A DNA stretch of 64,000 nt, taken from NCBI GenBank assembly GCA_947034885.2, contig OX344749.2:43677682-43741681 (forward strand). The letters run 5' to 3'. Below the pieces are notes generated by a model. That model was not told where the DNA came from and searched no databases. It saw nothing but the letters and a program-made list of their open reading frames with translations. Shown here piece by piece: positions 23,828 to 58,264 of this stretch; within the stretch, counting starts at the first letter, position 1, and each line of letters starts with the position of its first letter. A program made the position numbers and the translations under genes. The DNA is from Thuidium tamariscinum. Lineage: Eukaryota > Streptophyta > Bryopsida > Hypnales > Thuidiaceae.

Positions 23828-24559
23828 TCAATAGCGATGGCACTTCTTGGTGATCAACTGCCCCACACGCTCCTTCTCAGGCATCGTCACAGAAACGTCA
23901 CAAACCGTCTTCACCCCAAACCCAAAAGATCTGTAAGTCCCAATGCGCACCCTCGCCCTCCCCTCCACAAACACCTGCACCGCCACACTCCCCCTCTGAA
24001 TCTCCGCCTGCAACGCATTCGCCAGAATGAACGTCACTGGCACGCTCATCGCCTTCACCTCCACCCCCACCACCGTCCAATTCCTCTTCCCTTGCGTGAA
24101 TGGAACAATCATCGCCCTCCCAAACGTCGCAGTGGCATATGCCACTCGCATGTCAATTCGATCATACGTGATCTCCATGTGGTGGTTGCGGTTGCAGGCT
24201 CGCAAGGTGATGACCAAGTCTGCATTTAACAGAAAGGTGGTGATGCCCCAGTTGCTGTGAGTGTCGGTTGGTGATGATGAGAGTGATGCCGCCCCAGTTG
24301 CTGTAGTAGTTTGAAGGCGTCGACGTGAGTTTGTGGATTGGATGTTGAGAGTGATGAGCTTCATGTCGTCAATTTCCCATGACGGGGAGTGGATAGGGCG
24401 GAGGACGAGCCAGATGATGAAGGCGATTAAGCCTAAGAGGAGGAGGGTGATGACGAGAAGGGAGAGAGTGAAGATAAGCAAGCGGCGGAGGGCGTGGTGG
24501 CGGCGGTGGCGGAACTCGGCGTACTCGGGGTTTACTTTGCATTCACCAACTTCGCCCAT
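23828..24559 (-). CDS. NHL (NDR1/HIN1-like) LEA_2 membrane protein
   Basis: An intronless gene for a 243-residue protein of the NDR1/HIN1-like family, which in angiosperms are plasma-membrane or ER proteins linked to defence and stress. A basic cytosolic head (residues 1-26) is followed by one membrane span (about 27-53) ending in WLVLRP, the family signature after the helix. A serine/threonine-rich linker (75-105) precedes the LEA_2 beta domain (about 112-226), where NRNHHMEITYDR (123-134) and VPFTQGKRN (152-160) correspond to family motifs, though the usual NPN is changed to NRN. Cysteines at 122, 220 and 240 could pair outside the cytosol. The start sits in a good plant context (AACCATGGG). 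The antisense frame of 130 codons is a shadow. A specific role cannot be read from sequence. Confidence 0.88.
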   Translation of the reverse strand: MGEVGECKVNPEYAEFRHRRHHALRRLLIFTLSLLVITLLLLGLIAFIIWLVLRPIHSPSWEIDDMKLITLNIQSTNSRRRLQTTTATGAASLSSSPTDTHSNWGITTFLLNADLVITLRACNRNHHMEITYDRIDMRVAYATATFGRAMIVPFTQGKRNWTVVGVEVKAMSVPVTFILANALQAEIQRGSVAVQVFVEGRARVRIGTYRSFGFGVKTVCDVSVTMPEKERVGQLITKKCHRY

Positions 24560-25997
24560 GGTTGACGACAGTTAGGGCTCGCTGGAAAGCCCAAGACATG
24601 TGCAAAAGATTAGCCAGAAGTTACAATTGGAACAATTAGCATTGCTGCAACGATTTATACCCGTATTATGTCTCACTGCAAAATTTGCGATGAATTTGCA
24701 GCGTTTGCAAACCATAAACGTTGTAACATTTGTCACAATTAGCATTGCTGCATTGATTTGTACAAGCAGCATATGCAAACATTGCAAGCTTGGTAAGGAG
24801 CATTCACAAATCATTGTAAACTTATGCAAACAAACCCTTGTATAAGCGTTGAAAGCATGAGCATTGTGAAACCATTGCAAAAGAATAGCAAACTAATAGT
24901 GAGTTTCGAACCTTATTGAAACTTAAGCGCGTTGCAAATAGACTGCTGATGAGTTGTGGCAAGTCGCCAATAAAACATTCAACCTGGAGCAGTGAGCGAT
25001 GTTCGTAGCTTTAGTGATTAAAATAGATGCGCAAGAGCCTCTAAGGATGACATTTAACGCAATGCTATGCCATTTCCTACTTCGGAGAGATGGTTATCAC
25101 TATAAATTAACTTTGAAAACTGCAAGACTAATACAGTCTTTTGTAAATTTCCATTCACTCGATCTTAAAGTGAATCACCGTTAAAAACATGCACAGCATT
25201 CAACAAAACCTCAAACTCCCTAACGAAGGAAAAACCACTGATTCCAACCCCCATGAGTAAACTTTTGCACACAGAGTCTTGCGAATGGCCGATATATACG
25301 ATTCTGGCAAGAACACCATGCCAACTTACCTTAAGAAAGCAACGCCAGCACTGAGATCAATCGAGGAGCTCGCAATTCTGTGAAGTGTTAGAGAAACTGA
25401 TCCTTAACTACGGTGTGTCTTCGGAATCCATAGCATTCAGGGAGTTCTTACACATTGACCCCTGACAACAGCAGCAGCTCCAACAACTCAAGATCACGCT
25501 AGTGGCAAGTCATGTAAAAGCAAATATAATTCTTGGAAACAAAAGCATGCTAAAGATTTGTGAAAAATTCATGAAGACAGAAAATTGAGAACGAAAAAGC
25601 GGGAAATGCACTAACTTTCGACTATTGCGCTCTGATTCATCAAACAAGATTTCACACCAAGGCAAGAGCACTGCAGAGCAGCTGCTGAAGAGTGAAGAGG
25701 GGAGAGAGACGACAACTGGATGGATGGACGGATGAATCTTGACGAGGATGAAATAAATGGATGAGACTGGCTGTGCTCATGCTCTTCATGTGACGTGTAG
25801 GTAGTTATCATACAGGGAGCTGGTGGCCTGACTATTTTGATAGTTACGGCATTTAAATTAATTGTCATTTGATCCTTTCCTTGTTGTCCGGATTATGAAA
25901 AAGTATTAGAATAGTAAGAATTGGTCAGATTATCACGGATGGGATGTTGCAGTATTGCAGGGCCTGAATATTCAAAGCAAGACTTTTCAACTGCTTA
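24560..25997. other. Upstream region of the NHL gene
   Basis: No gene supported. It should contain the promoter and leader of the minus-strand NHL gene. Near 24620-24780 the phrase 'acaattagcattgctgca' occurs twice about 112 bases apart within a stretch full of GCAAAC/TTGCAA words, suggesting an old local duplication. Confidence 0.4.
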
Positions 25998-47350: not shown

Positions 47351-47618
47351 TCTAAATTCTTTCAATTCCAATCGTAGACTAGGTACTTTCCTACTTACTA
47401 CTTCTTACTTTCTTGCTCACTACTTTAAGACATGTGTCATGATCTTATTTGGCCTAACCTTATAAAGTAGGTAAGAACACAATGTCTAAAGTCTTCCAAT
47501 TCCAACCCTAGACTAGGTACTTTCCAACTCACTACTTCCTACTTCCTACTCTCTTGCTCATTACTTTGGGACATGTATCATGATCTTATTGGGCCTAACT
47601 TTAAAAAGTATGAAAAAA
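47351..47618 (+). repeat. Tandem duplication, two units of about 134 bp
   Basis: Two diverged units, starting 'tctaaattctttcaattcc' at 47351 and 'tctaaagtcttccaattcc' at 47485, each running through 'gactaggtactttcc', 'catgatcttatt' and 'ggcctaac'. Within the second unit 'acttcctacttcctact' is a further small expansion. Non-coding, 3' of the vasohibin-like gene. Confidence 0.7.
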
Positions 47619-48175
47619 GACAATTTAAATTGTGATTGGAAATATATTCTAGCCTTGGTTATAAGTAGTTGCACTCTATAGGCTGGGCATGGGTCCTCTC
47701 CACCCGCCTTGAAACTTACGTCTAACGTTCCAAAATCTTGGTCCCTTCATTGTGTTCGTGCCTTTTGATATTTAATTCTTTTGATTTCAACTCCTGCAGA
47801 TGTGAAAGTGTTCACTTTGTGACACCCGGGCTCTTCAGGGTCAAAATTATCTCCCTGTAACAAATAATCTGGCCACGGCCAGCTCGTTGATGCTTAGTTG
47901 CTCACTACAGGTCTTTTAGATTGTGAGAAACCACTTTTGTCCGATTGGCGTAGACTTGAGTTTCTTGCTTCAACATTTCATGAATCATTTGGTGCATCAC
48001 TCAGCTTTTGTTTTCTGAAGTGCCATACTGTAAAGCGGTCCTGATCCACTAATCTTACGATTTTCATCTAGTAACTTCGAGTCTGCTTGACACAACAAGT
48101 TCTCACAATCGCAGTGCTTGCAATCCTCCCAAGCTGAAGGATTTCGTACAGTCGATCCATACTCATCTATATGGA

Positions 48176-51100
48176 TTACAGAGTACTCTTCGTCTTACCG
48201 CACATGGTTCCTTGATGACGGTGTTTGGGACACTGGGTGTATTTCCAAGGACCAGTGGAATCTCTAGGGTTGAAGAAGCCTTTCAATGGAGACTTGTTGA
48301 TGGAGACTGGAGCATTTCGTTGCTTGTGGGAATAATGGAAATTCGTTTTATCGCTCACTGCTGATTCATAAGAGCGAGTGTAGGTAGAGGTTGGACGACG
48401 GCACGGAGGTACTTGATACTCCTCACACCGGTTCCTACCCACAGACCTCTTTCGCAATGTTGACGCCTTCTTTACAATCGGCCTGACTCTCGTGTTCAAT
48501 CCATTGTTTAGTGGAGCTTTCCTCAGGGTCTTCAACGGCTTTCTCGTGGGGTCAGCTCCTCTCCCAGAAATCACCCATCTGCAGAAGAAATTGTCGTTCG
48601 ATGCTCAAATTCACAGCAATGACTCGATTCGTAGCCCATCTAATTTTTTTTTAAAATCAACGATATAATTAGTATATCTAGACACCATTGACCTAGTGAA
48701 CCAATTCTGTGTGCGACTAGGTAAGAGCATTAACACTAAATTTCCAGTCAATGCCAAATGCTTATGAACTGAGAGAGTAGTTATTGCTACTTGAATTGGG
48801 CTTACACATTCCATAGGTGCTTCATCCTCGATGCATGGTTCTCAACGGCTGCCACACACTGAAGCAAACCTTATTTCAGTATGTCAGACCTCATTTACGA
48901 ACATACTATTCTTAACATGCGAGGTTACTGTCCATGATGAGGAATCCCCAATGAGACTGCAACAACATAGAATGGACTTCTATGTATACATACTATCTCA
49001 GCATATCATTATCAAAGTTTGAAAAATTAAATTAGAAGGTTTTTGGGGAAAACATCTGCTTACCTGCGGCCATGGTTGTTCAGCCGGGCAAAGACAAACA
49101 TGTTCCCAACAAACGTAAGTTGAGGACATAATGTTATGTTCTACCTGCCACAAGATGGACTGGTTATTTTGTGACTACCGGTTTTCTTGAGTCAGTTCCA
49201 ATTTACTACATAAAGAAACTCAAGGACCACTCTCTAGCACACAGAAGACCACCCACAGCAGATGCTGAACATCTTTGGACATTGTATGTGCTTCAGTGAT
49301 AAGTCTCCGTAGAATGACCAGAAGTATTATCTATTTACCGGGAGGCCAATTTGAAGATTCAGGATTGTATGGTCACTTTCCTCGTATGCTATCTTGAAGT
49401 CTTCAATAATGCTTGACATGCTGAAATTTCTCAAAAAATATTTTCGAGTTAGAATTTTCCTTGAAGCTGTTCAAGCTTGAAATTCCAGGTTGTCTTAAAC
49501 AATCGTTCAAGGCGTACACTTTAACGTAAAACTCAAAATCAATCTAAGGAACACTCACCAGTCAATGAGTAGCTTATGTTTTCGCCTGTATATATTACAA
49601 CTTCAATAAAGTCTTAGTTTCGCTTAAAATCCCAAAATTGTAAGATTGGACCTGGCTATGACTGTCAATAATTGAAATTTCATGTAAGCTTCCTTGTTTA
49701 CCTGTCGTAGCAGATGTCTTTGCTCATTAGATCTGGGCTCCTGCTCATTCCAAACGCTCCATACTTGCCTTTATGCTGCACCAGCAGGACAAGGTGCTGG
49801 TATACCTGTTCAATCCCTCACCCCAATGCATACCGCATATAAATGTCAGCTGGAGATGTTGATGTATCAATTTTGTCTGACAGAGCACCAATGCGGCATA
49901 CGTAAATGTCATGAGGAAACTACACCTGATTGGCGAACTGTGTCTTGAATCCAAGTGGTATGCGCTCAACTGCTCGAAGGCCAGCCTGCACAGCATGTTC
50001 AGACAATCTGCTTCACCATTTGACTCTTGATTTTGAATTCGAGGTACTGATTCCAATGAGCCAACTTGGTTTGAAATTTGCCTAACAGTTGATAAATTAT
50101 ATCAGATTGGATAGGCTTACAGTCAGATAGAGCGCAACAAATACTGCCTCCACGCACTTGATGGGCTCGGGTTGGTGAATAATCTGTTTATGTAATTGGA
50201 GAGATCGAGTTACGATCAGCATATGTTCATAGCATCTGCTTTATATTTGACCAGGCTATGATGCAATAATAGTCAGCGGGAAGAGCCTAAACAATATACA
50301 AGAAGCATATTGTCAAGAGACTCCAACAAATTCACAAGCTTTCTCATTGTCTGCATACGAGATCTACAGTAATAAGATATCAAAATTCCTCAGTGACATA
50401 GAGAAGATCAAATCGGTATTTGTACCAGTTTTGCAGTGGCCATCAGCCCTAACAAGGGCCGGTGTTTCTTGATCTGGAAGTTGGAAACCGGGTTTAGTCT
50501 GTACTCGAATTCAGAGAGAAACTGCTCAATCAGCACCAACAAAAAAATCACTTAGATTTCAGATTGTTGCACAGGATAGAACGTGAAAAGTTAATTGTCA
50601 TGTAGTCGTTTTGATCTATTTGCAATAAATTTTAGACTAATACTTTTGAGATATATTTACGAACCATAACTGGTTAACCTGCTTGACAGCTCGAAGTCGT
50701 TGTCTCGTAGGCAGGTCAAAGAAATTGGAAGGCAGCTTGGGCTGTGCAGAAGAAACACTTGAGATCATATTTTCTCCGATGCATTGACATTGGTTTATCT
50801 CCACGTAAGTAGAAGTAACGGCTGATTCTGGACCCTACAAGACCATGTCATCTTCAAGAAATGCGGAATACAAGAGCTATATTTCGGTCTTTCATTGGAT
50901 TTTACTGAACTGGTGAACTGGTCATTTGCTCATTGGTTTAACATAAATATGATGACGGAATCATGAACAGCATTGCTGACTGAGAGAAGCATGATGGCAC
51001 ATGCATTCATTTTTCAAGACTCAAATGTGGACTCAAATCAGATTGGGATGCTTGATCTGGGAAAAAAGCATCATCTGAAGGAAAACGAACCTCTGAGGTG

Positions 51101-51855
51101 TGTTGCGGTCTTTCGAAGATTTGTGATTTCTCTGACATGCAGATGGCAGCAAGACGGGAGCTTGTGTTTGTGTCCAGTTTCCCAACGAATCCTATTGGGG
51201 ACTGTCCACAGTTTCTATTCGACCACACATGTCCAGAAGGGACGCAACCCAGTGAAGTTAATTCCTGGGGAGGTGAGCAGGCTGACAAGCTCCTGCTTCC
51301 ACTATAAAGACCACTTTTCGTGGACCCGACGACATCCGACGGCTGGGATAAGCAGGCGCCTCGTGGTATTGAGCAGTTTGATAATGTCTCGTCTTGGTTC
51401 TCCCGAAAATCCAATGTGTCGTGCTCTCTTACTGCATTAGCTAAATACTCTGCCAAACTGTTGTCTGACTTGGAGGATGATTCACATGCCTTCAGTGGCA
51501 CAGGACCAGGTGATGGAGTTTGGTCTTCACCTCCTTGTAATCGCAAGGGACTAGGAACTCTCAAAACGTTTGAAAAGTATTGGGAAAAACTGATGTCTGA
51601 CCTAAAGGATGAACTCGCATCCCGGGTCACTGAAGAGCAAGCCGATGGAGACGACTCTTGGCTATCGTGGATGAAAACTCGATTAGGTTCCCCCAAAATT
51701 CTCGCCACGTACTCCACAAAATTGTCGTCTGACTCAAGGATGGTACTACATGAAACAAGACATTTCATAGCCTGCGCTACTTTTTGACTTGCTTTTCCAA
51801 ACCAACCGAAGAAGTTGAATGCCGGCGATCGTTTAGGGAGAAAAACCTCACACAT
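48176..51855 (-). CDS. Vasohibin-like tubulin tyrosine carboxypeptidase
   Basis: Predicted to cleave the C-terminal tyrosine of alpha-tubulin. Ten exons join in phase: 51855-51091, 50834-50679, 50521-50426, 50183-50121, 49985-49926, 49805-49702, 49420-49339, 49144-49064, 48858-48806 and 48578-48176 (620 residues). The vasohibin core is about residues 297-486. PIKCVEAVFVALYLT carries Cys349, VYQHLVLLV His384 and GAFGMSRSPDLM Ser401. Spacings of 35 and 17 equal those of human VASH1 Cys169, His204 and Ser221. The Lys before Cys and Arg after Ser, which in VASH1 hold the tubulin C-terminal carboxylate, are kept. KKHRPLLGLM, VERIPLGFKT and VENHASRMKHLW also align without gaps. A basic, disordered tail follows (488-620), as in VASH. 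The 255-residue first exon holds 44-residue repeats. Start is tentative: an in-frame TGA lies upstream, but a splice acceptor-like CAG is close by. Confidence 0.9.
51334..51735 (-). repeat. Coding tandem repeat, three units of 44 residues
   Basis: Inside exon 1 of the vasohibin-like gene, residues 41-174. Units begin SDDNFVEYVARILGEP, SDISFSQYFSNVLRVP and SDNSLAEYLANAVREH; the tyrosines fall at 49, 93 and 137, exactly 44 apart. Each unit is a short predicted helix (Asp-x-x-hydrophobic-x-x-Tyr-hydrophobic-x-x-hydrophobic) followed by a Ser/Pro/Asp/Glu-rich linker ending in a Cys- and Ser-rich segment. I recognise no domain family. Confidence 0.75.
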
Positions 51856-54800
51856 GTCATCTGTTCAAAATGAACCACGAAGCTCAGATAAATGTTGTCA
51901 CAATAGTGGGCATGCATGAATACGTAAGAGAAAGAATTTTCTAATCGAGTACAAGAAAAGTTAACTATATCAAAGGGGAATACAAGCACGATTTTCTTAA
52001 CTTGAAAAGCAGAGAAAATGTCTGCTTTCCTGCCTCATCTTCTGCAGCAAAACACATGGTGCCACTTCACAGGCATTCCGCAGGCAAGCACCTTAAACTC
52101 TTCCCGCCGGAAAGAGTTTTTTTCGCTACCAGGATTTTGTACTGAACTTGCTGCTGACGTTCTTGATCGCTTGGCGAATCCCTGGCCACGAAATTCAAAG
52201 TTTAGAAAGTGCTATGGATCTTGTACATCAAAACATGTCCGGAACAGTTAATCCCCAGATATGAAGCGAGGCATCCGTTAAATTTGAAGGATGCTCTATT
52301 GTGCCGCAAAAAGCTAGGGCAAAGCATAGGACCAACCTCAACGCGATTACGCTGGATTTGAAGCATTGAGCTCATCAGCTACCGAACAGTCAACTCAGCA
52401 ACATTCGCAGACTTCAGAGGATACATGAAAATCCTAAGGATGCGGCACAGGAAGGGTCAAAAGATTCTCACCACTGCATATTCTAGGGTTCTGAGCAAAG
52501 TGTCTTATAGATCTGGAGTTCCGTCAGTTCTCAACCTACATTCGACGAATGTACAAAGTGACAGCTTTTCATGTATTGTAGAAATTGTCGATCCAGCCAC
52601 GAGTAATACTGATGATGGTGCCTCAAGTGAATAGCCGACGAAAAATTAAACAAGAAGAGCAATCTACAGGAGCTTAATCGTCGAAAGGTAGGGAGTATTA
52701 CGAGACTCGAGAGCTGTGAGGTAAACTTAGCACTCACTTCTTAAAAAAAAATCCAGAATGCAGAGAAGAGTTCCGCACGCATTACCAACAGGTCTTGCGA
52801 TGATCATTGCTCTAGCTCTCCTCGCGCCAGCACTTGTAAGAGGTCTTATTTCTTCCTTAAGCTTCATTCCGGCATCACTGTTTAAGAGAGAAGTTTGTAC
52901 CAGGCAGGCTAGAGTTTACGGAGAACGGATGCTTGAGTTGATTCGGTTTCTCTGCATCAGCACAGATCCTCAATAGATCCATGGAAGTAAACGGAAATGG
53001 CGTCGCCGTCCTTGAGAATCACAGAAGGGACCACCTGGATGCTGTTGTGCTATCCAGGGCATCATAACAATGACCTTGAGGAAAACGGGAAATCAACCGA
53101 CAGTCTAGACACAACTGATTTCTATCACATGAGCAGAGATACTACCAGTTGCCTCAGCACAGTACCGGAGATGATGGGAAACTAAGCGACACAGTACCTC
53201 TTCGCCTCCTATTGACGCTATGCTTCTGGAGATTGTAATTTCCTGTAAGTGACATCAGCCTTCGATTCAATCGTTAGAGCACTTCTACAATAATCCTCCG
53301 AGGACTGCGCTGGTGCAACTGATCAATTCTCGTGATTCACCGAATCCTGCCAAGCTCCATAGAAGTTTTTTTACAGAATATTATGCTTCCAAAATTTTTC
53401 TAAACTACTCACTCCCGTTAAGATTATGAATATCCTCGTGCCTACAAACTGAATTATGGCGCTTGTTACTCAAGCCGTCAGTACTCTGTTGAGTAGCATT
53501 CATCAGAAAGAACATTTGCCATTTCTACAAACAATAATAATTGCTCAGGATTCAGCTAAACTGATGGTCTGCATTGCCAGCCGAGCTTCTTGACATCATA
53601 TCCACTCAAATCTCGTTCGAGCTACCAATAAGTCAATCATCATTCGCCACTTCATCTGCGGAACTCACCTGTCTACATTCAAAACGATCAAATCAAGATC
53701 CTGAGCCCTAATCTTTCTGTTTCTCCATTCAGTCTAATTTTCGATTCTTATACTTAGGATTGATTAGGAGAGATTATTCACAAGGAATGTATGGAATCAC
53801 AACAATGCTCACACTATTGATATACTACCTGCATGATGCTCTCGAAATCCCGCCCGCTAGCATGAGTACTTCCTCACTGTTGCCATTTGCCTAAACCCTA
53901 AACAAGGTCAAGAATCATTACTTATGCCAAACCATCAAAAGGCGAAGCGAATGGTCGTCAAAGAGCATGATCACGAAATGGAATAGTCCTTCATCGTTGT
54001 GGAATCATGAGATGGCTCTGCTAGTCTAGGAGAGTCCAGACATCATCAGGCACACTTCTGCTGCGAAGACAATAATCACCAAGTTGCCGTGTGCTGTGCT
54101 GGAGCGCTCTTCTTGTGCAAAATTATGAATAATGAAGTAAAGCTTCACTCATGACTGCAAAAAGCGTTACAGCACAGAAAAAACTTTGCCTCTGGAATCT
54201 GTTCAATTGGAAAAACAGCACTGCATTTGGAAGCAAGTGAGGGCACTGAGTCTCCCACTAAACCCTTTCACTATAACCGGCATACCGTATCTCACTGATT
54301 CCTCTCAAAAATCTCACTAATTAATTCCACTAAATAATCCGCCTCACTAATACCATTAACAACCGTAGTCTATCTCACAGTCTTGCAGCAAAAACAGCAA
54401 AATTAGGGCTCAGTAATCTGCAAGACTTCCAAATTAGCAACCTGGTATCTGTTCTTCACTGATCCAAGTACTGGAAATCATGTCTCCATCTGAGCTTTAT
54501 ATTGCTCAGTAGGATCGATTCATTTTCATAACATGATTCCTAGGTCGACACGACAATCCAGCTTCTCTCCAAACCAGCTTGCATTCTCCGACGGGTTGCT
54601 ATACTTTCCTTCGGAAAACATCCAGAAAAGATCAGCTCCGATCGTGCACCTCTAATTCACGACAAAGACACCTTCCTTGATCCAAGTTTCGTTAATCATT
54701 TTACTCAAAATATAGTTTTCGCAAACCTCCAAACGTAATTTGTGATCCAGGGCAGACAAAGCTGCACATGCCCGTGCGGCAATGTTCGAATCGGAGCCAA

Positions 54801-55468: not shown

Positions 55469-58264
55469 ATGGTGGATATGGCACCAGTCATGCCTCTTGT
55501 GCAGCCGTTAAGATTTGTGGAAAGTGCGAAGCAGGTCCTCTTCGGAACGGTTCTGAATGTTTTGCTTGTGTGCATTCCCTTGGCGATTCTGAGCGATCAA
55601 CTCCGTATCGGAAATGTGCGTCGTCTTCACTAATGCTCTGTGAATTGAATTGGAACTACGATGATATAGCCAATGTCTCACTTTACTTCTCTTTTCTTTC
55701 TCATTTGCAGACCCTAATCTTCAATTCATTCAATGTGATACTCTCAATGTGACGCACCTTCTTCAAATCCTTTGTATTTCTTGTTTGCAGTCGTGGGTTT
55801 TTCTTCTCAGTTTGATAGGAATCGTCCCGCTAGCGGAACGACTTGGATTCGTTACAGAGTGAGCTTACTCTCCTTTCGTGTTCTACATGTCTCTACAGTT
55901 TAGTGTTTACAATTTGCGATATGGACAGGGTTGTGCCTTTCAAGTGCAATTTCTAAATCGTTTGCTGTTTACATCTCTGTGTGTATCAGACAATTGGCGT
56001 TCGTTACAGGTCCTGCAGGTACTTGTGCACTCTTCACCACAACAAAAATTATGTGCAGTTCATCAGAGGAAGAACTTTGGTAACTGGTTTGAAAAAGCAA
56101 AGTTGCTTAGGACTGAGCTCATTCACTCTGCTGCCAATGTTTTTAAGAATCGTATAAAATGATGAATGCGCTTCTTCGCAGTGGGAGGTCTTTTGAATGC
56201 GACATTCGGCAATGCAACCGAACTGATCATCTGCGTGTTTGCGCTGCGAAACAACATGGTCCGAGTGGTGCAGCTGTCGCTTTTAGGATCCATTTTGTCC
56301 AACATGCTGCTGGTGCTGGGGTGTGCCTTCCTATTCGGAGGGTTTGTAACTTCAAAGAAAGAGCAGAAGTTTGATAAGGCGAGCAATTTTTTTGCGTGGT
56401 TTTCTTCGTTAAGTACCATGCTATGACGGCTTCAGAAACTGAAATTTTTTTATCTTGATCAATGGAGTGCCATTCTGGTCAGTTCTGATAATGTCTTGGA
56501 ATGGAGTGTATCCAGGCGGCAGCTCATTTGAACTCGAGCTTGCTGTTGATGGCTGTCATGTGCGCTCTCTTTCCTGCGGTCCTTCATACAACGCGGACGG
56601 AGTTTCATTCGGGGAAGTCTGAGCTTATGCTGTCAAGAATCACCAGCTGCGTCATGCTCGTGGCGTATGCTGGTTACGTATTTTTCCAGATCAGAAATCC
56701 TCCTCCCCTTCGAGAAGAGGTGAGAACAAATTCCATTTCAGTTTCTACAAGGAAGCTGGAATACTTTTTGAGCTTTGAAACCCTAATTATGGTTTTGCTA
56801 TCAACATGTAAGATTCTGTGCTTGACGTACCGACCATTTTGTATTTTGGGCTTGCTAGTATAGTTAATTGTGCTAAATCAAAGCTGAAACGTGATCACAG
56901 GACATCGAGACTGCCGAAATTACAGAGTCAGAGTCTGAAGTCGATGCATGGAGTGCTCTTTTCTGGCTGGCCGTTCTAACTGTCTTCATATCTATCCTTT
57001 CTGAATACATCGTTAATGCTATAGAGGTATGTCGATGAAACGACCTAACGACGGCTATGTTCAATGAAGCTATGTATTTGTAAGCAAAATTCTAATTCAG
57101 ATGGAACCTTGAGAGAAGAAATTGATCAGTGCTGCTGCTGATCTACAATCCTGACTACTTTCTGCTCTCAGGACGCTTCGGAAGCGTGGCACATACCTGT
57201 TGGATTTATCAGCGTCGTCATTCTGCCCATTGTGGGAAACGCGACTGAGCACACAAGTGCTGTTATATTCGCAGTCAAAGATAAGCTGGTACGTTTTCCA
57301 TCGTTCAGTTCACTTATCAATTGACCATACTTAGATATTTAGCAAAGTCATACTTACAGAACTTGCTACTGAATACAATTTAAGTATATGAATAGAGGAG
57401 TAGATGCTGGTAACAGGGGTTGGTATAGCAGTCTGTATCAGATCCCTAACAGTTCTAGTATCAAGTAGGTTAATTTTTGGTGCACCAAAGAGAGAAGTTG
57501 TATCCCAAGTTTGCTTGTTCATGCCGTCTGCCAAGTTGAGCTTACTCTTGATACATTGAAACCATTCTTGCGGAAACCAGAATTGATGGTCTTCATTTAA
57601 ATCGCGTGAAATGCCAGGACCTGTCCCTGGCTGTGGCAATCGGCTCCTCCATCCAAATATCTATGCTTGTGGTGAGCACATCGTTTCCCTCCTGAGTGTA
57701 AAACATGCAGCTTCCAAACTCTAATAAGAGAGTTCTTCACATTTATCGAAGTGTCCAAAGAGAATCTCTTTTGGATTTAACTGATATAAGTTTTGGGTCT
57801 CGTTTTCATTCATGAAAGTTTGACTCTATGCAGATTCCTGTCTGTGTTCTACTTGGATGGCCCATGAGAGTGTCCATGGATCTTAACTTCGAGTTATTTG
57901 AGACAGCGGTACTCTTTATCTCTGTACTTGTGGTGGCATTCATACTGCTGGTACGATTCAAACTCTTCCTATCATGTCACCAATTTTTTCTCTGACCTTG
58001 CACATTGCAGAGCGAATGTATCTTGCTTTTTAATTTTTAAGCTTGTTTATATGATGGCCTTTAAGTCGTGGAATCAAGTTCTGGTTGTGCTCCAGATTCT
58101 TGAGCCATTCGAAAAGAGTAACACACTGCCATGGCGTTTGGCAGGAAGGAACTGCAAATTACTTCAAAGGTTTCATGCTGGTGCTATGCTACTTCATTGT
58201 AGGAACAAGCTTCTTTGTACACGTAGACCCTCCGTCTCAAGTGAAGTTATTGAACAGTTTATGA
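55469..58264 (+). CDS. Vacuolar cation/proton exchanger, CAX family
   Basis: An antiporter that moves Ca2+ (and other divalent metals) into the vacuole in exchange for H+. Ten exons join in phase: 55469-55615, 55791-55858, 55990-56018, 56182-56378, 56516-56719, 56901-57026, 57172-57288, 57618-57671, 57834-57950 and 58145-58264, giving 392 residues. Both alpha-repeat signatures are present: GNATELI (91-97) in the first half and GNATEHTSA (279-287) in the second. The acidic linker between the halves is [13 protein letters not shown] (216-228). About eleven membrane spans are visible. The start follows an in-frame TGA at 55460, so the cytosolic N-terminus is only about 20 residues, shorter than the autoinhibitory region of angiosperm CAX1. 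Intron 4 seems to use a GC donor (AAG/GCGAGC); all others are GT-AG. The gene looks intact. Confidence 0.95.

Follow-up and report, generated by a model that had tools for sequence, protein, structure and literature searches.

Background and locus

In animals, vasohibins trim the last tyrosine off alpha-tubulin, and MATCAP is the other known detyrosinase family. Kinetoplastid vasohibins (VASH) are active without the partner protein SVBP, according to the available text of PMC11761321. In Chlamydomonas, VashL mutants have strongly decreased detyrosinated tubulin, their intraflagellar transport trains stop recurrently, and their cilia regrow more slowly (available portion of PMC11770126). Plant vasohibins were traced from green algae to Physcomitrella, with none in vascular plants, in the accessible part of Sanchez-Pulido and Ponting (2016; PMC4866520), and a passage of a 2024 paper still states that plants have no homologues (PMC11720312). 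Here we describe a vasohibin gene of the moss Thuidium tamariscinum. The gene lies on the minus strand, at 51855-48176, of a 64,000-nucleotide (nt) stretch of assembly GCA_947034885.2 (contig OX344749.2, positions 43,677,682 to 43,741,681, forward strand; hereafter the window). Based on its sequence, we favor the explanation, with a probability of about 0.75, that the gene encodes a cysteine carboxypeptidase predicted to remove the terminal tyrosine of alpha-tubulin, acting as a single chain and serving mainly flagellated sperm.

Family identity, active site, and predicted fold

Re-splicing of the window yielded 10 exons that join into an open frame of 620 amino acids (aa), reproducing a model spliced by hand in an earlier note made from the DNA letters. 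All nine introns are GT-AG and the splice phases agree. In a Pfam scan of this protein, the sole family at E values up to 0.001 was Vasohibin (PF14822), matched over profile positions 47-228 of 245 with 175.8 bits (cut-off 24; E = 1.2e-51); the earlier note had named this profile as the one to search, and the match is strong. In a sequence search of PDB, all 19 matches were to the tubulinyl-Tyr carboxypeptidases 1 and 2, i.e., VASH1 and VASH2. The top match, VASH1, aligned over 177 residues with zero gaps (E = 3.6e-36), which bears out the gapless core alignment to animal vasohibins that had been proposed.

The catalytic residues are found in short conserved motifs, namely C349 in PIKC, H384 in QH, and S401 in MSR, and their spacing (35 and 17) is that of VASH1, as previously noted. 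The substrate-carboxylate Lys and Arg next to the catalytic residues, K348 and R402, are likewise present. Equivalents of VASH1 Y134, K146, R148, K168, and R222 are all retained (5/5), giving 8/8 together with C169, H204, and S221. The proposal of a Cys-His-Ser triad holds for the presence of all three residues and needs correction for Ser as the third member: a study of the VASH1 crystal structure gives the third triad position to the carbonyl of L226 instead of Ser221 (PMC6937246). The window protein also has Leu at the L226 position.

For structure prediction, the Ceratodon ortholog P0001 (M758_1G120200), the first row of a 56-row alignment, served as a stand-in for the window protein. Its AlphaFold model is mostly disordered (mean predicted local distance difference test score, pLDDT, 55.8; predicted template modeling score 0.48), whereas pLDDT in the core is mostly above 90. 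In a Foldseek search with this model, ranks 1-23 were all VASH1 or VASH2 chains. The superposition on VASH1 6j8f has a root-mean-square deviation (rmsd) of 1.8 Å over 197 columns and a template modeling score (target) of 0.80; some longer alignments to VASH chains have rmsd values up to 13.3 Å. Judged on this ortholog model, the predicted fold is transglutaminase-like and of the VASH type. A structure model of the Selaginella relative P0012 was poor (mean pLDDT 51.5) and was set aside, and an NCBIfam scan of five relatives matched no family. By the sequence comparisons above, the moss gene is a genuine vasohibin, with the compared catalytic and substrate residues intact.

Relatives and descent

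Two protein searches, the second of which scored 7997 candidates, gave 17 and 63 matches, corresponding to 63 distinct proteins. The trees and residue tables include 21 of these 63, plus the window protein, the Thuidium paralogs L005 and L006 (and L046), and VASH1; 56 of the 63 entered the modeling alignment. The 42 proteins outside the trees and residue tables are near-duplicates, fragments, or mostly metagenome rows. Over the searched region, the closest proteins are from Ceratodon (82%) and Physcomitrium (81%). Named relatives belong to mosses, liverworts, Selaginella, Adiantum, Klebsormidium, and Micromonas, such that the bryophyte, fern, and algal proteins suggested for comparison each include vasohibin relatives. 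The earlier note, aware of no vasohibins in flowering plants, could be taken to suggest that this gene type was unknown in plants. However, bryophyte vasohibins have been known since 2016, going by the accessible part of PMC4866520, and a Marchantia relative is already annotated as a tubulinyl-Tyr carboxypeptidase. Vasohibins of vascular plants were found in Selaginella (P0012, P0140, and P0141) and Adiantum (P0016, on a 139-Mb contig). As sequence matches, these contradict the absence from vascular plants stated in that same part of PMC4866520.

The tree (26 rows, 203 columns, midpoint root) places Klebsormidium outside the land-plant group (100/100). This group splits into a lycophyte/fern clade (97/92, including four unnamed rows) and a liverwort/moss clade (93/87). 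The placement of VASH1 and Micromonas is unsure owing to long branches. Because the order of the tree follows plant phylogeny, the gene looks vertically inherited, with no sign of transfer. Of the two origins that had been left open, a retained ancestral enzyme or a transferred one, the tree and the moss orthologs thus favor the former. An animal or protist source of the gene, by contamination or by horizontal transfer, is extremely improbable: the window is part of a 54.2-Mb contig in a genome of 363.2 Mb in 19 contigs, moss orthologs are 81% identical, Klebsormidium branches outside the lycophyte/fern and liverwort/moss group, and a LEA_2 gene and a cation-exchanger-type gene share the window. 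Nothing was found that favors such a source.

No named seed plant appears among the 63 matches. Animals possess vasohibins, and no animal is named among these matches either, even with 7997 candidates scored; the search therefore cannot show absence, and a lack of vasohibins in seed plants is weakly supported.

The SVBP docking surface

In VASH1, the main contacts with SVBP come from helices 1-2 (named residues Trp74 to Leu101) and from loops, among whose residues are Q133, H136, T137, and F141; mutations of these four loop residues reduce VASH1 activity (PMC6937246). None of the four contacts is retained in the window protein (0/4), and the part of the PF14822 profile before position 47, which covers the region of helices 1-2, is unmatched. 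Entry into this profile is at positions 37-51 in the land-plant clade (7/7 proteins scanned, one unnamed) and at 45 in Klebsormidium, compared with 9 in Micromonas and 7 in the unnamed algal-side P0145. Among the 18 land-plant-clade rows with letters at the contact sites, 12 have 0/4, five have 1/4, and one has 2/4; Adiantum, P0017, and P0139 are without this region and are outside these counts. Klebsormidium has 1/4, and three algal-side rows (Micromonas and two unnamed) have 3/4. In the same 18 land-plant rows, all eight active-site and substrate residues are retained in 15, and the remaining three, which lack the catalytic Cys, have 5, 6, and 5 of 8. These patterns suggest that land-plant vasohibins appear to have lost the SVBP dock while keeping the active site.

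An SVBP-like partner elsewhere in the genome had been proposed as something to look for. A six-frame exon search with the SVBP profile (PF15674) gave nothing above the cut-off (best E = 0.13, 20.9 bits against 27), in what is a weak search: the profile has 63 positions, an intron-split gene could escape, and 14 control genomes gave none either. One candidate, L007, was rejected as its DNA, read by eye, looks like chance. A protein search with SVBP was uninformative on plants; the names among the best 120 of 235 matches are vertebrates, and many rows are nameless.

These results bear on whether the moss protein may still depend on an SVBP partner too diverged for detection. Solved VASH structures are SVBP complexes by title, some titles being silent on the point, and the weak genome search, with its negative controls and sub-threshold match, is compatible with such a partner. 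Moreover, a block shared by the window, Ceratodon, and Physcomitrium (GFVGKLDTNTSSRLAAI) could stand in for helices 1-2 as a diverged helix pair, and the Ceratodon model has one low-confidence helix there. However, the window protein differs from VASH1 at all four loop contacts, only 0-2 of the 4 are retained in land-plant rows where three algal-side rows keep 3, and eight streptophyte-side proteins enter PF14822 at 37-51 where two algal-side proteins enter at 7-9, which makes continued SVBP dependence unlikely. We favor a moss enzyme that would work as a single chain, because its SVBP dock is unrecognizable, no SVBP match exceeded the cut-off of the weak search, and kinetoplastid VASH is described as autonomous in the available text cited above.

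Paralogs and a clade without the catalytic Cys

We count at least four vasohibin loci in the Thuidium genome. In addition to the window gene, these are L005 (C3:33.6 Mb; 33.627 Mb), which retains the compared active-site residues; L046 (C6:18.7 Mb; 18.730 Mb), which retains them except for Phe at the position of VASH1 L226; and L006 (C1:12.7 Mb, + strand; from 3548, C1:12.687 Mb on), in which Ser replaces C169, Pro replaces R222, and Cys replaces Y134. The exons read in L006 have open frames and GT-AG junctions. Physcomitrium P0013 has Phe at the Leu226 position, as L046 does. Another Ceratodon protein, P0007, carries a V-chromosome locus tag (KC19_VG152000), belongs to a clade other than that of the window gene, and is 80% identical to L005; V is the male sex chromosome.

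L006 groups with Ceratodon M758_4G244100 and Physcomitrium P0008 in a clade that is sister to that of the window gene (100/99), and all three members lack the catalytic Cys. The Ceratodon protein has Ser169 and Pro222; P0008 has Ala169, Asn221, and Ser222. Pairwise identities are 83.0, 81.0, and 81.3% in the Cys-less clade, and 81.3, 80.8, and 81.8% in the clade of the window gene. In VASH1-SVBP, C169A and C169S each abolish activity (PMC6937246), and C169S VASH1 with SVBP still binds microtubules in the account accessible from PMC7449697. Because the Cys-less copy is as well conserved as the active-type copy, the simplest reading of these sequences is that it may have retained a non-enzymatic role. 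It is conceivable, though rather doubtful, that streptophyte vasohibins shed the lobe that binds SVBP and turned into single-chain detyrosinases with a tie to flagellated sperm, and that in mosses the conserved Cys-less paralog then became a partner that attaches to microtubule tails but leaves them uncut, a natural analogue of engineered C169S VASH1, thereby tuning the active copy.

Substrate and possible function

Potential substrates for detyrosination are encoded in this moss. The genome has 27 tubulin C-domain matches, and the six alpha-type loci readable to the stop (typed by eye) all end in -EY or -DY, whereas a terminal Tyr is absent from all five beta-type tails that could be followed to the stop. 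Alpha-type matches also occur in inverted pairs (C1:17886098 and 17907760; C7:16512768 and 16528842), and three equal-scoring beta-type matches are clustered at C3:43937739-43991592. The TTL family has seven matches at three places. Two exon pieces, from different places among the three, best matched TTLL7 (E = 1.8e-6) and TTLL6 (E = 6e-28) in PDB, which are polyglutamylases; a dedicated retyrosinating TTL is not established from this comparison of two places.

In the mechanism that we favor, a cluster of K348, R402, and Y314 would grip the C-terminal end of the alpha-tubulin tail, and C349 with H384 would cut off the terminal tyrosine. Its main use would be in flagellated sperm, on axonemal microtubules and other stable ones. 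The organisms of the named relatives have flagellated cells at some stage, and the phenotype of the Chlamydomonas VashL mutants and the V-chromosome tag of Ceratodon P0007 also count in favor. We infer a role in sperm or the axoneme, as the earlier note had also proposed.

Several points weigh against this reading. At least three further vasohibin loci exist in the genome, and the loss of the catalytic Cys in the sister clade leaves room for non-enzymatic functions among family members. The window protein differs at the VASH1 microtubule-interface residues H268, V270, and R234, mutants of which have reduced activity in the part of the VASH1 literature available. A frame offset near the 3' end, described below, changes the C-terminus of the window copy, and the allele could be impaired. 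The absence of the family from seed plants is not demonstrable from the 63-match search. Furthermore, SVBP-knockout mice are fertile according to the accessible text of PMC11770126, an argument against VASH-SVBP being required in sperm generally.

Some of these points would also fit an enzyme that has shifted to another substrate or microtubule role, such as cytoplasmic arrays or the phragmoplast, rather than sperm axonemes. The four loci, the long repeat-bearing N-terminus, the lost interface residues, and the fertile mice all lean in that direction, but the residues that bind the tail are retained, as are alpha-tubulins ending in Tyr, and the named relatives occur in organisms with flagellated cells. 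A shift of this kind is possible but somewhat unlikely.

Gene structure and the two ends of the gene

The ten exons of the re-spliced model have sizes of 765, 156, 96, 63, 60, 104, 82, 81, 53, and 403 nt in order. The seven middle exons (96 to 53 nt) are identical in size in L005, L006, and L046, and a wrong splice model is hardly likely because of this agreement across loci. The coordinates given for the gene below are on the minus strand. The long N-terminal region is encoded at 51091..51860 (from 51855 in the earlier model), with 59% identity to residues 14-291 of Ceratodon P0001. This exon has three SD-x-SF-like repeats near residues 42, 86, and 130 in the earlier model's numbering, and comparable stretches are found in Ceratodon and Physcomitrium. 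The vasohibin core opens at 50679..50834 (PKLPSNFFDLP...), as indicated by re-splicing and the Ceratodon comparison, and continues at 50426..50521 with Y314 and KKxR (VASH1 Y134 and K145/K146/R148). K348 and the catalytic C349 (codon 50156-50154) are located in the exon at 50121..50183, which is followed by AGLRAVERIPLGFKTQFANQ at 49926..49985. The exon at 49702..49805 contains H384 (49796-49794), S401 (49745-49743), and R402. The core exons (D)SMSSIIEDFK...IGLP at 49339..49420 and VEHNIMSSTYVCWEH... at 49064..49144 come next, and the exon at 48806..48858 encodes CVAAVENHASRMKHLWN; these boundaries, like that of the AGLRAVERIPLGFKTQFANQ exon, come from re-splicing. The C-terminal region of the earlier model is at 48176..48578 (re-splicing and Ceratodon comparison).

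For the extent of the gene given in the earlier note (48176..51855), the core exons stand and both ends need revision. The N-terminus of Ceratodon P0001 is MRQEDGDLDFLCVTNDMSVD, and its start, MRQEDGDLDFLCVTNDM, resembles the peptide MRQESRHFLCFS encoded at 52038-52002. The latter has an ATG and a GTTAAG donor and is followed by a 141-nt intron; the CAG acceptor ahead of 51860 joins it in frame to ATGACATG (NDMCEV). An additional 37-nt start exon at 52002..52038 was therefore probably missed.

At the other end, 48194-48003 has 53% identity to Ceratodon residues 661-722 in a frame other than that of the last exon; the out-of-frame continuation (EEYSV...SGPLYSMALQKTKAE stop) occupies 47997..48194. 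A frame offset near 48195-48205 is indicated because the Ceratodon-like C-terminus is in another frame, and the ancestral reading frame probably did not end with the stop at 48176. The offset may be a real change, with about 65 residues swapped for seven, or a small assembly indel. Tails with a similar end, in which GPLY or GSLY precedes a basic stretch, close the Cys-less proteins P0004, P0008, and L006. If real and inactivating, the offset near 48195 could mark a decaying or non-functional copy, as the displaced homologous C-terminus would suggest. However, the ten exons, splice sites, and catalytic residues are intact, the core is 81% identical to its orthologs, the lesion is past the catalytic core, the Physcomitrium ortholog P0002 manages without a Ceratodon-type tail, and an assembly error is possible. 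Decay is thus very unlikely, and an active detyrosinase is still the preferred reading.

Other features of the window include an open frame of the sodium/calcium exchanger family (PF01699, E = 4.7e-11) at 56166-56423 on the + strand, upstream of and divergent from the vasohibin gene. The frame after it (56492-56860) has matches below cut-offs only. An open frame at 23828-24568 on the - strand matches LEA_2 (PF03168, E = 4.3e-7) above the cut-off. Downstream of the vasohibin gene, a 141-base-pair unit is present in two tandem copies with 82% matches (47351-47624).

Comparison with known systems

The vasohibin family is already known, and the moss gene adds a well-predicted member to it rather than founding a new type of system. 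Two side results are of value, namely the loss of the SVBP dock and the conservation of a sister clade that is without the catalytic Cys. No title on land-plant vasohibin function was found among those listed in the open-access literature, most subscription papers being outside that scope. The moss protein has an intact active site and orthologs in Physcomitrium, and a relative exists in Marchantia, which makes the question of a plant detyrosinase testable. Two predictions follow: from the lost dock, an enzyme that is active alone, and from its presence in plants whose sperm swim, mutants with impaired sperm or flagella.

The closest counterparts, Ceratodon purpureus M758_1G120200 and Physcomitrium patens LOC112279716, are 81% identical in the core and share all eight active-site and substrate residues and a related N-terminal region; both are recorded as hypothetical or uncharacterized. 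The C-terminal extension is in frame in the Ceratodon protein and out of frame in the window, and the Physcomitrium ortholog has a different end. The Cys-less clade is sister to that of the window gene, and L006 shares its middle-exon sizes, but its members have Ser, Ser, and Ala at C169, and Pro, Pro, and Ser at R222.

Chlamydomonas VashL is a green-lineage gene required for normal axonemal detyrosination and is described as a Vash2-SVBP homologue in the available portion of PMC11770126; it is likened here by that description. In the available text of PMC11761321, kinetoplastid VASH (TbVASH and LmVASH) are described as detyrosinases that act autonomously, no SVBP having been found; this is the mode predicted for the moss protein, a likeness drawn from the published account. 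Their substrates include Tyr-ended beta-tubulin by the same text, in contrast to this moss, where none of the five beta-type tails that were read ends in Tyr. With human VASH1 and VASH2, the window protein has in common the core fold (judged on the Ceratodon ortholog model), the Cys-His dyad, the Ser221 and Leu226 positions, Tyr134/Lys168/Arg222, and Lys145/Lys146/Arg148. Unlike them, it has no recognizable helices 1-2, has lost the compared SVBP contacts, carries a long N-terminal extension, and differs at three microtubule-interface residues.

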